Shown here piece after piece: positions 52,170 to 56,511 of a stretch of 64,000 nucleotides of DNA. The notes under the pieces were generated by a model that worked only from the letters and a program-made list of their open reading frames with translations, ran no database searches and was not told where the DNA came from. Numbering within the stretch: the first letter of the stretch is position 1; each line of letters begins with the position of its first letter. Made by a program: the position numbers and the translations under genes. Source of the stretch: Limosilactobacillus sp. WILCCON 0051. GTDB lineage: Bacteria; Bacillota; Bacilli; Lactobacillales; Lactobacillaceae. Location: positions 372,001 to 436,000 of the forward strand of contig NZ_CP154878.1 of the NCBI RefSeq assembly GCF_039955095.1, given 5' to 3'.

Positions 52170-53990
52170 ATGTGTGGAATTGTTGGTGTTACAGGAAACG
52201 ATCGCAGCGTTTCCATTTTGATCGACGGGTTGAAGCGTCTGGAATACCGCGGTTACGACTCCGCCGGCATCTACGTCAACGACGAAAAAGGACATGACTA
52301 CCTGGTTAAGCGTTCCGGGCGCATCAGCAACCTGGAAGCTGCCTTAACGCCAGAAGTTAAAGGGTTGGCTGGGATTGGCCACACTCGCTGGGCGACGCAC
52401 GGTGTTCCAAATGAAACCAACGCGCACCCGCACTACTCCAATGATGAACGATTCTACCTGGTTCACAACGGGGTCATTGAAAACTATCAGCAGCTGAAAG
52501 AAGAATATCTTAAGGGTGTTGAATTCAAGAGTCAAACCGACACGGAAGTTATCGTTCAGTTGGTTGACAAGTTTGTCGTCGACTACAAGATGGATACCAA
52601 GGACGCGCTGCTTAAGGTTCTGCGCTTGATCAGTCCTGATTCTTCATATGCCTTTGCCCTAATGGATCGCGAACAGCCAGATACGCTGTTTGTGGCTAAG
52701 AATAAGAGCCCATTGCTGGTTGGTTTGTGCCAAGGCTATAACATGGTAGGTTCTGATGCCATGTCGATGATTGATGAAACCAACGAGTTTATGGAAATCA
52801 ACGACCATGAGCTGGTGATCGTCAAGCCAGACAATGTAACGATTGAAGAATTCGATGGTACGGAAAAGAAGCGCGATTCCTTTAAGGTTGACATGGATCC
52901 AAGTGCTGCCGATAAGGGTACCTACCCATTCTATATGCTAAAGGAAATTGATGAGCAGCCTGCCGTAATGCGCAAGCTCGTTCAAGAATACTTTGACAGT
53001 GACGACCAGCCACAGGTCAGCGAAAAGCTTTTGCAGGCAATGGCGGAATCCGATCATATCTACATTATCGGTGCCGGGACCAGCTATCATGCCGGCCTGA
53101 TTGGGGCCCGGATGTTCGAAAAGCTTTGTGGCGTGCCGACTACGGTTCATATCTCATCAGAATTTGCCTACGAGCAGCCGCTGCTTAGCTCCAAGCCGTT
53201 CTTCCTGTTCCTGTCGCAAAGTGGTGAAACGGCTGACAGTCGCGAAGTACTGGTACACGTCAATGAACACAACTGGCCAAGCCTGACGATTACTAATGTT
53301 GATAAGTCAACGCTTTCTCGTGAGGCTACCTTTACCCTGCTGCTGTACGCTGGCCCAGAGATTGCCGTTGCTTCCACTAAGGCCTACACGGCTCAGATCG
53401 CGGTTGAAGCTATTTTGGCCAAGGCATTGGGTGAATACCTGAGTCGCGATGCTGCTCAAAACTTCGACTTAAAGCACCAGCTGGGAACGATTGCCAACGG
53501 GATGCAGTCAATTACCGACTCAAAAGAAGACATTGAAGCGCTGGCCTCTCGCTACCTCTCTAAGCCACGCAACGCCTTTTACATTGGCCGGGGCATTGAC
53601 TGGTCGGTTTCTTTGGAAGCAGCCTTGAAGCTTAAGGAAATCTCCTATGTTCAAGCGGAAGGCTTTGCATCCGGCGAGCTTAAGCATGGTACGATTGCGC
53701 TGATTGAAAACCAAACGCCGGTAATTGCTATTATTACCCAGGATCGGACGGCGGGCCTTACGCGCAGCAATCTGGAAGAAACGCAGTCACGGGGCGCTGC
53801 TGTTTTAACGATTGTTTCACGTCATCTGGCACATGAAGACGACAATATCATCATTCCAGACGTTGACGAACTATTGACGCCGCTTTTGAGTGTCGTCCCT
53901 GCACAGCTGCTTGCCTACTACACGAGTCTGGGCAAGGGCTTGGACGTTGATAAGCCGCGCAACCTGGCTAAGTCGGTTACGGTACAATAA
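52170..53990 (+). CDS. glmS: Glutamine-fructose-6-phosphate aminotransferase
   Basis: About 606 residues. The mature N-terminal Cys of MCGIVGV is the glutaminase nucleophile, which fixes the start at 52170. It has an N-terminal class II amidotransferase domain with RGYDSAGIY and GHTRWATHG, then two SIS isomerase domains (GAGTSYHAG, SQSGETADSRE), ending LAKSVTVQ. First step of amino-sugar synthesis for the wall, directly after glmM. Confidence 0.97.
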   Translation: MCGIVGVTGNDRSVSILIDGLKRLEYRGYDSAGIYVNDEKGHDYLVKRSGRISNLEAALTPEVKGLAGIGHTRWATHGVPNETNAHPHYSNDERFYLVHNGVIENYQQLKEEYLKGVEFKSQTDTEVIVQLVDKFVVDYKMDTKDALLKVLRLISPDSSYAFALMDREQPDTLFVAKNKSPLLVGLCQGYNMVGSDAMSMIDETNEFMEINDHELVIVKPDNVTIEEFDGTEKKRDSFKVDMDPSAADKGTYPFYMLKEIDEQPAVMRKLVQEYFDSDDQPQVSEKLLQAMAESDHIYIIGAGTSYHAGLIGARMFEKLCGVPTTVHISSEFAYEQPLLSSKPFFLFLSQSGETADSREVLVHVNEHNWPSLTITNVDKSTLSREATFTLLLYAGPEIAVASTKAYTAQIAVEAILAKALGEYLSRDAAQNFDLKHQLGTIANGMQSITDSKEDIEALASRYLSKPRNAFYIGRGIDWSVSLEAALKLKEISYVQAEGFASGELKHGTIALIENQTPVIAIITQDRTAGLTRSNLEETQSRGAAVLTIVSRHLAHEDDNIIIPDVDELLTPLLSVVPAQLLAYYTSLGKGLDVDKPRNLAKSVTVQ

Positions 53991-53995
53991 TTATA

Positions 53996-54029
53996 AAAAG
54001 AAGAAGCGGTTTGTCGTTTCTTCTTTTTT
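53996..54029 (+). terminator. Terminator of glmS
   Basis: AAAGAAGAA..CG and CG..TTCTTCTTT arms and a T-run. Confidence 0.8.
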
Positions 54030-54065
54030 ATTTTATGCTAGCAGCTGAAAAAATCTGAATAACTA

Positions 54066-54094
54066 TTGACAGCGCTTACAATATTTTGTAATAT
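54066..54094 (+). promoter_or_regulatory. cre-overlapped promoter of a candidate small RNA
   Basis: TTGACA (54066-54071), 17-bp spacer, TAATAT (54089-54094). TGACAGCGCTTACA (54067-54080) matches the CcpA cre consensus at 13 of 14 positions and covers the -35 and spacer. Confidence 0.7.
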
Positions 54095-54100
54095 ATAGTC

Positions 54101-54186
54101 ACAAGGTATTAAGTATTTACCTTCTAATCAATTCTCTTTCTCTCTTATGCCAATCATCGTCGGTCCACGGCGATGATTTTTATTTT
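54101..54186 (+). ncRNA. Candidate CcpA-controlled small RNA
   Basis: A transcript starting near 54101 would have a 5' hairpin (AAGGTA/TACCTT, 54103-54123), then an unpaired stretch with 15 consecutive pyrimidines (54132-54146), then an 11-bp intrinsic terminator (AATCATCG/CGATGATT, 54152-54178) with TTTTATTTT. No ORF with a ribosome site lies inside. Hairpin, pyrimidine-rich seed and terminator is the usual layout of trans-acting sRNAs that bind Shine-Dalgarno regions. Confidence 0.5.
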
Positions 54187-54220
54187 CTGATACAATAGAT
54201 GCGAAAGGGGAATTGTTTAA

Positions 54221-54532
54221 ATGGAAGAACAGCATGAAGTCTTTACCTTAATAGAAGAAATTACGCGTAATGATGGCACCAAATATTATGAAATCGGCAA
54301 TATGGTTCATAACGGCCGTGCCGAGCTGGCTGCTGAGCGTGGCTATATTAAGGAAGTTCGCATTTTAAAGCTGAATATCCCGCATTCACAAAACGTGATC
54401 AATTATGAGCATTTCATCAACACGCACTATCAGATGCAAGATGAGTCAATGGATCACTGGGAGGAATGGAAACGAACCCCAGAAGCCGATCAGCTGGTCA
54501 AGGCGATTCTGCGTGAAAACCGAGTCGGCTGA
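54221..54532 (+). CDS. Uncharacterised 103-residue protein
   Basis: Acidic soluble protein starting MEEQHEVFTLIEEITRNDG, with a predicted beta-hairpin then helices and a WEEWKRTPEADQLVKAI helix. No family recognised. AAAGGGG precedes the ATG. A TGATACAAT extended -10 at about 54188-54196 suggests its own promoter, and a strong terminator follows. Confidence 0.7.
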   Translation: MEEQHEVFTLIEEITRNDGTKYYEIGNMVHNGRAELAAERGYIKEVRILKLNIPHSQNVINYEHFINTHYQMQDESMDHWEEWKRTPEADQLVKAILRENRVG

Positions 54533-54554
54533 TTGAGTAATTCTGATATTTCTA

Positions 54555-54597
54555 ACAACGGTCGGGGCAGAAAAAGACTGTCGCGACCGTTGTTTTA
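54555..54597 (+). terminator. Terminator of the 103-residue gene
   Basis: ACAACGGTCG pairs with CGACCGTTGT and TTTT follows. Confidence 0.8.
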
Positions 54598-54678
54598 TAA
54601 AAAAATCATTTTGATGAGACTTGTTGGTCAACTGTGATTATAATAAAAGTTGTTATTTTTTTATTTGGGGGGAAATCT

Positions 54679-56511
54679 ATGCGGTCCAAGCAATATGTGA
54701 CAGGAATTGATGGCGTCCGAACGCTAGCCGTGCTTGGCGTGATCATCTATCACCTGTTGCCGACAACGTTGCCAGGCGGCTATTTGGGCGTGCCGCTGTT
54801 CTTATTGATCTCTGGGTATTTCGTTACCTTACAGCTGGTGCGGCAAATGGATCAAACGGGCGGCATTCAGCTGACGAAATTTTACCTTAAGCGTCTGCGG
54901 CGGCTGTATCCGGTGCTGATCGTTATGCTGACGGTCACGACGGCTTATATTACGCTGTTTGCTCGCGATCTGCTGCATAACATCAAAAGCACCATTGCTA
55001 CTAATCTGCTGTGGGTCTACAACTGGTGGGAAATCGGCCATGGCCAGTCTTATTTTGATCGCTTCAATGGAGAGTCGCCGTTTACGCATTTATGGACGTT
55101 AGGCGTTGAGGCCCAGTTTTACTTCTTGTGGCCGCTGATTTTATTCATGCTGTTTTTGGTTTTGCGCAAACGTTCCAAAATCAAGTGGACGGTCTTTATC
55201 CTGGCGGTTGCTTCAGCAGTTGAAATGGCGCTGCTGTTTGATCCGCAAAATATCAACCGAGTCTACTATGGAACCGATACCCGAGCCTTTTCGCTGCTTT
55301 TGGGTTCCTGGCTGGCCTTATGCTGGCCGATTGATCGCCTTAACGCCAACTTGACGGCACATGCTGCCAGAATCTTGGATGGAGTCGGTATTGGTGCACT
55401 GCTGATCACGCTGCTGGGCTTTTTTACGCTGCCGGGCCAAAGCAGTTGGACCTATCGTGGCGGCATGTTTTTTTACAGCCTGATTGGGATGATTTTGATT
55501 GCGACGGTAGTTCATCCAGGCAGTCATATGAATCGCTGGCTGACCAACCCTTTCTTTACCTGGATCGGTCAGCGTTCATACGGCATTTACGTCTACCAGC
55601 TGCCGGTTATGGTCTTTTATGAACGAGTCGTTGAGATTGGCCGGCACCCAGTAATCAATGCCTTGGTTGAATGCCTGCTGATTTTAGCGATCAGCGAGTT
55701 CTCCTATCGATTGGTTGAACAGCCGCTTGCTCATTATCAGTGGCGGTATCTGCCGGCCAGCATTCGTCATTGGATCGACTTTAAAATGCATGATTGGCAC
55801 CAATGGCTGAAAGTCGGCCCAGTCGTCATCATCTGCTTTATCGCGCTGTGCGGTCTGATGCTGCCAAGCAAGCCGGCTAAAAAAAGTGCGGTTCAGACCC
55901 GCATTGAAAAGAGTCGCCAGGCTACGGCTGCTAAAAATAAGCAGATTGCAAAAGGAAAGACGGCTAAAGTTAACGTCAACAGCAAGTCGCTGCAGAAAAA
56001 ATATGGCCTGACCTCAAACCAGCTTAAAGCAGCCTCAGAGCTGAAAGTCACGGCAATCGGTGATTCGGTAATGGCCGATGCATCTCAGGATATTCAAGAA
56101 ATTATGCCGCATGCTTATGTCGATGCTGAAGTCGGGCGTCAGGGGAGCGCTACGCCAGCTGTTATTAAAGATCTTAAAGCTAAGGGGCAGCTGCAGAAAA
56201 ACGTGATTTTAAATCTTGGAACCAATGGCGCGATGGATTCGCAGACGATTAATGATATCTTAACGGCAATTGGTAAGGATCATCAGGTTTATTGGATCAC
56301 GCCGCACGTGCCGACGCGTGACTGGGAACAGACGGTTTGCGATCAGATCAAGCAGGCCGCCAAGCAAAATGCCAACGTGCACGTGATTGACTGGAATCAG
56401 GCTGCCAATGGTCATGCCGAGTGGTTTGCGCAGGACAAGGTTCATATGAATGAGCAGGGAAATGCATACTTTACGCGGCTGATTGTTAAAACGATCTTGA
56501 AAAATAAATAG
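54679..56511 (+). CDS. oatA: OatA-like peptidoglycan O-acetyltransferase
   Basis: About 610 residues. The N-terminal acyltransferase-3 domain has about 10-11 membrane helices (GIDGVRTLAVLGVIIYHL, GGYLGVPLFLLISGYF). After a basic linker (about 405-450) comes an extracellular SGNH esterase domain with the Ser block AIGDSVMADAS and the Asp/His block DKVHMNEQG. It O-acetylates wall muropeptides and gives lysozyme resistance. The ATG at 54679 follows GGGGGG; the upstream reading frame lacks a ribosome site. Confidence 0.9.
   Translation: MRSKQYVTGIDGVRTLAVLGVIIYHLLPTTLPGGYLGVPLFLLISGYFVTLQLVRQMDQTGGIQLTKFYLKRLRRLYPVLIVMLTVTTAYITLFARDLLHNIKSTIATNLLWVYNWWEIGHGQSYFDRFNGESPFTHLWTLGVEAQFYFLWPLILFMLFLVLRKRSKIKWTVFILAVASAVEMALLFDPQNINRVYYGTDTRAFSLLLGSWLALCWPIDRLNANLTAHAARILDGVGIGALLITLLGFFTLPGQSSWTYRGGMFFYSLIGMILIATVVHPGSHMNRWLTNPFFTWIGQRSYGIYVYQLPVMVFYERVVEIGRHPVINALVECLLILAISEFSYRLVEQPLAHYQWRYLPASIRHWIDFKMHDWHQWLKVGPVVIICFIALCGLMLPSKPAKKSAVQTRIEKSRQATAAKNKQIAKGKTAKVNVNSKSLQKKYGLTSNQLKAASELKVTAIGDSVMADASQDIQEIMPHAYVDAEVGRQGSATPAVIKDLKAKGQLQKNVILNLGTNGAMDSQTINDILTAIGKDHQVYWITPHVPTRDWEQTVCDQIKQAAKQNANVHVIDWNQAANGHAEWFAQDKVHMNEQGNAYFTRLIVKTILKNK

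Follow-up and report, generated by a model that had tools for sequence, protein, structure and literature searches.

A conserved, putatively CcpA-repressed small RNA of the Lactobacillaceae with predicted pairing to GlcU-type sugar permease leaders

The 64,000-nt stretch of Limosilactobacillus sp. WILCCON 0051 analyzed here (the window; NZ_CP154878.1, positions 372,001 to 436,000) contains, after glmS, a short segment in which promoter, operator-like and terminator sequences stand in close succession (54066–54186). We aimed to determine whether this segment encodes a small RNA (sRNA), whether such an RNA falls under the control of CcpA, and which mRNAs it could act on. A first-pass annotation, made from the letters of the window, had described a near-consensus promoter overlapped by a strong CcpA operator (cre), leading into about 85 nt with a 5′ hairpin, an unpaired tract of 15 pyrimidines and an intrinsic terminator, with no credible open reading frame (ORF) and with the next gene starting past the terminator; each of these elements was recovered in our analysis.

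A motif scan placed a sigma-70 promoter on the + strand at 54066–54094, with TTGACA (54066–54071) and TAATAT (54089–54094) separated by a 17-nt spacer. Over its −35 box, at 54067–54080 (no strand assigned), lies the predicted CcpA operator TGACAGCGCTTACA, which on the opposite strand matches the cre consensus TGWAANCGNTNWCA with 0 mismatches. The RNA gene, delimited by conservation and fold, spans 54101–54186 on the + strand and would yield a transcript of about 80–86 nt starting near 54100–54103. It is predicted to fold into a 5′ hairpin (AAGGTA...TACCTT, 54103–54123, +, arms 54103–54108 and 54118–54123), a single strand of 28 nt (54124–54151) that holds the 15-nt pyrimidine tract TTCTCTTTCTCTCTT (54132–54146), and an intrinsic terminator (54152–54186, +) made up of a stem-loop at 54152–54178 followed by a U-run. 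The fold energy is −20.4 kcal/mol, whereas shuffles average −8.2 (z −5.5; 0 of 200 shuffles as stable), and no ORF of at least 50 aa overlaps 54101–54186. The next gene encodes a hypothetical protein of 103 aa (54221–54532, +; characterized by family, fold and synteny searches). Read by eye, its extended −10 element TGATACAAT (54188–54196, +), accompanied by a weak −35, is positioned 3′ of the terminator, and many relatives within the genus carry a TATAAT-like hexamer at the same place. The segment thus combines the features of an sRNA gene, namely a promoter of its own, an intrinsic terminator, the lack of an ORF of at least 50 aa, and a conserved unpaired region.

The conserved part of the single strand is a 20-nt core, ATCAATTCTCTTTCTCTCTT (54127–54146, +), the predicted seed, which is near-invariant across loci. 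BLAST or a covariance model, neither requiring an exact core, detected 59 loci (three repeats of one place excluded), of which 58 carry the core exactly and all 59 carry its first 19 nt exactly. The terminator stem covaries, with four pairs changed on both sides, a level reached by 0 of 500 shuffles; the 5′ hairpin is almost invariant within the genus and therefore uninformative for covariation. Outside the core some variation is visible by eye: the register of the 5′ stem is shifted in L053, whose RNA is identical to that of Periweissella (L083), and Ligilactobacillus saerimneri (L114) retains core and terminator with unrelated sequence instead of the 5′ hairpin. Many genera have ATGCC directly after the core; it is missing in Lentilactobacillus, where loci L107, L112, L132, L150, L151 and L156 show a run of A.

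Next, we examined the distribution of the RNA. Of 33 genomes from the genus (its own included), 30 gave a BLAST match to 54000–54230, compared with 0 of 23 genomes of other genera. Among the 28 relatives that remain when its own genome and the near twin G031 are set aside, 21 align from no earlier than 54089 and 7 from 54048–54065, taking in the promoter, and the alignment ends by 54204 in all 28. When 50 genomes of the genus were searched with a covariance model built on 29 of the 30 BLAST loci (L029, with N, was dropped), the RNA was detected in 46, including 40 of the 41 of good quality, with one match per genome. The sole good-quality miss, G017, shows no intergenic DNA in the 20 kb and three loci inspected (L381, L351, L372, L397 in all), where its genes lie end to end, and the record looks like coding sequences artificially strung together. 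An apparent second copy in G008 (L403, G008:C1:508380–508800) was rejected, since a run of N, which is a gap or masked stretch and not a second gene, splits promoter and RNA there and doubles the BLAST match.

Across the order, the first covariance model matched 31 of 395 genomes, in 11 of 80 genera, and a wider model gave strong matches in 32 of 395, all from the window's own family. Weak matches outside the family (31–33 bits, 10 genomes) were judged to be chance after five had been read by eye: four, from f4, are located 3′ of one gene, match ACCTTCTAATCAA in part and have no cre, and one, from f5, lacks the RNA layout. In a draw of 398 genomes from the class, the only match at E ≤ 1e-4 was its own genome. 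An exact scan of named genomes for the 20-nt core returned at least 120 stretches; among the matches listed, 79 of 80 are from Lactobacillaceae and represent at least 14 genera (Limosilactobacillus, Levilactobacillus, Lentilactobacillus, Secundilactobacillus, Furfurilactobacillus, Paucilactobacillus, Lactiplantibacillus, Ligilactobacillus, Liquorilactobacillus, Loigolactobacillus, Latilactobacillus, Pediococcus, Periweissella and Dellaglioa); the remaining one, from a Poribacteria MAG (L128), is without any other part of the RNA and was discarded. The family also includes genomes without a detectable copy: the RNA model had no match in twenty listed genomes from six genera. In 14 loci from such genomes, a 700-nt stretch ahead of the 103-aa gene contains none of three test strings taken from the core, and the best cre there has at least two mismatches; the check covered 15 loci, L396 being left out as it has no upstream sequence. 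No family in Rfam 15 matches the RNA of the window or that of ten further loci, and the titles and abstract openings of the open-licence literature, with most subscription journals lying outside, yielded no similar family-wide RNA in lactobacilli.

To evaluate CcpA control, we scored the cre ahead of the RNA in 114 distinct sequences, after excluding loci that contain N or reach too short a way upstream. It has 0 mismatches in 98, one in 15 and two in one, compared with frequencies in base shuffles of 0%, 0.4% and 5.6%, respectively. In 112 of the 114 the promoter has a TTGAC-type −35 box, and the cre sits either on that box or close to the −10 box; the two Loigolactobacillus sequences (L086, L118) are the only ones with the best match away from the promoter. 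Two positions recur. In 85 sequences, the layout of the window included, the first base of the cre is the second of the −35 box, and in 27 it starts 14 nt after the −35 start and reaches the −10 box; all of these 27 are from Limosilactobacillus or from genomes of the window's genus (among them L136, from a record named Lactobacillus sp.), except one each from Pediococcus (L101) and Liquorilactobacillus (L103). The cre has thus moved and yet been kept, which argues for selection on CcpA control, and since both positions would block the polymerase, the effect is expected to be repression. The promoter cre is conserved in relatives, as in members of the CcpA regulon, and the genome carries a CcpA gene above the family cut-off (G000:C1:597950); CcpA control of the RNA is, on this basis, very likely. 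The first-pass annotation had staked its proposal of a CcpA-controlled sRNA with a C/U-rich seed on conservation in relatives; all three elements, the cre, the tract and the terminator, prove conserved, and the comparative evidence favors the proposal. Together, these data make it highly probable that 54101–54186 is a genuine RNA gene of family-wide occurrence and very likely under CcpA, a reading we accept because its elements are conserved and not for the promoter match alone.

We then turned to possible targets. Complementarity of the tract to purine-rich ribosome sites had been suggested earlier, and this holds in a target-specific form and not as a general enrichment: full-length purine sites RRGRGRGRRRGRGRR (up to one mismatch) occur 16 times in its own genome, including the gene itself, versus 18 for the reversed pattern. 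In 464 kb of that genome, the leader of a GRP-family sugar permease (PF06800) ranks 2 of 431, with a predicted duplex of 12 + 6 base pairs over the Shine-Dalgarno sequence (SD) that involves UCUUUCUCUCUU and AAUCAA. Duplex energies were computed without target structure, from gene starts called by a simple script, and compared with 300 dinucleotide shuffles of the core; the leaders share ancestry, so that they do not count as independent. Across RNA-carrying genomes (47 of 49 fetched leaders, one further short fragment being left out), GRP leaders gave −15.4 versus −12.9 kcal/mol, with 0 of 300 shuffles reaching the observed value and 13 of 47 leaders at p ≤ 0.05. The corresponding values for RNA-less genomes, a control that consists mostly of GRP genes other than GlcU-type, were −11.1 versus −11.6, 211 of 300 and 1 of 26; these 26 come from 30 loci, two without a start and two from G017 having been dropped, and eight further matches have no locus. 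An earlier comparison that still held the two G017 leaders gave 77 of 100 shuffles.

The signal resides in the GlcU-type genes, defined by the motif WG[ST].G. Their 20 leaders gave −18.5 versus −13.7 (0 of 300 shuffles; 11 of 20 individually at p ≤ 0.05), and the 27 other GRP leaders showed no signal as a set (48 of 300 shuffles; 2 of 27 individually). For the three GlcU-type leaders of the RNA-less set, 118 of 300 shuffles reached the observed value, and 71 neighboring genes showed no pairing signal (88 of 100). In Lactiplantibacillus, a genus assigned because the RNA of another g28 genome is identical to L081, the GlcU-type leader comes first among the 389 genes of a 400-kb stretch that was chosen for holding that gene; there GGCAUGAGAGAAA...GAGGAUU is predicted to pair through the SD with almost all of the conserved stretch, including TATGCC. 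Within the window's own genus, a set of 46 leaders in which one gene is counted twice gave −16.7 versus −14.1, with 5 of 100 shuffles reaching the value and 10 leaders individually at p ≤ 0.05, and in the window's species group (L217, L404, L405) the duplex energy is −23.6. The predicted pairing is thus strongly supported in GlcU-type genes and within the species group of the window, with borderline support across its genus.

Screens of orthologous genes in three and four genomes produced no clear genome-wide winner. In the three-genome screen, no three-species group had a better mean energy than GRP, although GRP did not lead in z. In the four-genome screen (323 groups) GRP reached z −1.56, its Lactiplantibacillus row being a paralog and not the GlcU-type gene, and uvrB (−3.98), metN (−2.55) and others scored better; both gene names were assigned by eye. 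The uvrB leaders with this best shuffle-corrected pairing come from three Limosilactobacillus (own_22, B_17, C_21). The metN leaders G000:C1:530212 and G262:C1:889593, from two genera, pair well with the core, and metN ranks 2 of 389 in the Lactiplantibacillus stretch, which makes it a possible second target. Repression of GlcU-type permeases remains the best-supported action of the RNA, and we regard it as probable. Just upstream of some GlcU-type genes (L237, L240, L243, L234) we also noticed by eye cre-like sequences such as AAGCGCTTACA, and these genes may themselves be under CcpA control too.

From these comparisons we consider it likely that the locus encodes a trans-acting sRNA of the Lactobacillaceae that is repressed by CcpA and pairs with the SD regions of GlcU/GRP permease mRNAs to stop their translation. 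When a good sugar is plentiful, CcpA would repress the RNA gene; once that sugar is exhausted, the RNA would be released from repression, and its single-stranded core would pair with mRNAs at their SD regions, chiefly with the messages of GlcU/GRP-family permeases, the duplex stopping ribosomes from starting. Transcription of the gene, its repression by CcpA, pairing in the cell that lowers translation, and the existence of further targets are all what we infer from sequence.

How else could the locus be read? Promoter-like sites on their own occur at chance level (4 versus 3.6 expected in 53000–55500), as they would if promoter, cre and terminator had assembled by chance after glmS and there were no RNA gene, an idea that the conservation of every element across genera renders extremely improbable. 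The surroundings of the RNA bear on two further readings, both of which involve the gene downstream. Among the matches listed, the 103-aa gene lies at most 400 nt downstream of the RNA in 68 of 79 named loci and 536–1256 nt away in 4, and the remaining 7 loci end within 260 nt. Of the 68 named loci whose upstream sequence exceeds 1.5 kb, 17 have glmS no more than 2.6 kb before the RNA; one shorter locus has it as well, and 12 of these 18 belong to Limosilactobacillus or look-alike genomes. The constant neighbor is thus the 103-aa gene and not glmS, and the location after glmS, to which the first-pass annotation had given weight, is correct for the window and fails as a general link. Such near-constant synteny, with a terminator between RNA and gene, would suit a leader or attenuator in which the terminator sets read-through into the 103-aa gene. 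We think this very unlikely, given that the gene has, by eye, a −10 element of its own past the terminator, that the RNA is intact in Lactiplantibacillus (L095, L096, L121) at the wider spacing of 536–1256 nt, and that neither the minimum-energy nor the centroid fold contains an anti-terminator. The same position directly before the 103-aa gene, together with a core that is invariant without covariation, could also point to a protein-binding site in a decoy or scaffold RNA, with the 103-aa protein possibly the one bound. The protein is 61–85% identical to 35 aligned homologues and has no Pfam or NCBIfam family; its confident model (pLDDT 91.8) matched nothing in the PDB at E ≤ 0.001, so that no RNA-binding fold is suggested. 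Its gene is present in 16 of 18 genomes without detected RNA, and a protein site would leave the GlcU pairing unexplained, making this reading unlikely.

A different kind of alternative accepts the CcpA-controlled sRNA and gives it other mRNAs as main targets, GlcU being a minor target or a coincidence and the core being frozen by its many partners. Twenty nucleotides invariant over many genera do suggest several partners, the GRP signal is borderline in the window's own genus, and metN, which pairs in both its own genome and Lactiplantibacillus, and uvrB are candidates for such a role. On the other hand, GlcU-type leaders stand out under the set-level, neighboring-gene and RNA-less-genome controls. 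We therefore give this alternative a real, if limited, chance of being correct.

Read as a CcpA-repressed sRNA directed at GlcU-type permeases, the RNA invites comparison with several known regulators. SR1 of Bacillus subtilis and Spot 42 of enterobacteria are sRNAs controlled by carbon source; both are longer, have further regulators and act on other targets, and SR1 also encodes a peptide. The Rfam search of the window reported no similarity to either. Closer in layout are the CiaRH-dependent csRNAs of streptococci, short RNAs with an unpaired stretch against the SD and start codon between two stem-loops (PMC3091779). The layout is common to both, whereas the regulator is CiaR there and presumably CcpA, through the cre, here, and Streptococcus pneumoniae has five related csRNAs versus one match per genome for the RNA of the window. 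The CiaR repeat given in the same source, NTTAAG-N5-TTTAAG, is absent by eye from 54040–54100, where a cre is present, and the Rfam search of the window, in a collection that may hold no csRNA model, reported no csRNA similarity.

The comparison with RsaI of Staphylococcus aureus, drawn in the first-pass annotation, is apt, since the target predicted best here is likewise a GlcU permease gene. RsaI has a C/U-rich unpaired region, and we take the Rfam family RsaOG to be this RNA. RsaOG has no match in the window at the gathering threshold, nor up to E 10 in 54060–54200, nor in ten further loci, and membership of the RNA in the RsaI family is accordingly not supported by Rfam; the lactobacillar model in turn has no match in the 397 other genomes of the class draw, which may hold no staphylococci. 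RsaI also has other targets, icaR and fn3K. According to PMC9266662, RsaI is repressed by CcpA, is derepressed in glucose starvation and blocks translation of glcU_2 at the SD. The wiring (CcpA, sRNA, SD of GlcU) is alike in the two systems, with the lactobacillar side consisting of predicted pairing that is borderline in the window's own genus. It is quite possible, if short of probable, that Lactobacillaceae and staphylococci independently built a circuit in which CcpA represses an unrelated sRNA and this sRNA represses GlcU, and that the lactobacillar RNA is a general post-transcriptional arm of catabolite control. If so, an RNA arm would be added to carbon catabolite control in the lactobacilli, a group of great importance in food and in the gut, and comparison with RsaI would offer a direct test of whether the CcpA-sRNA-GlcU wiring evolved twice.
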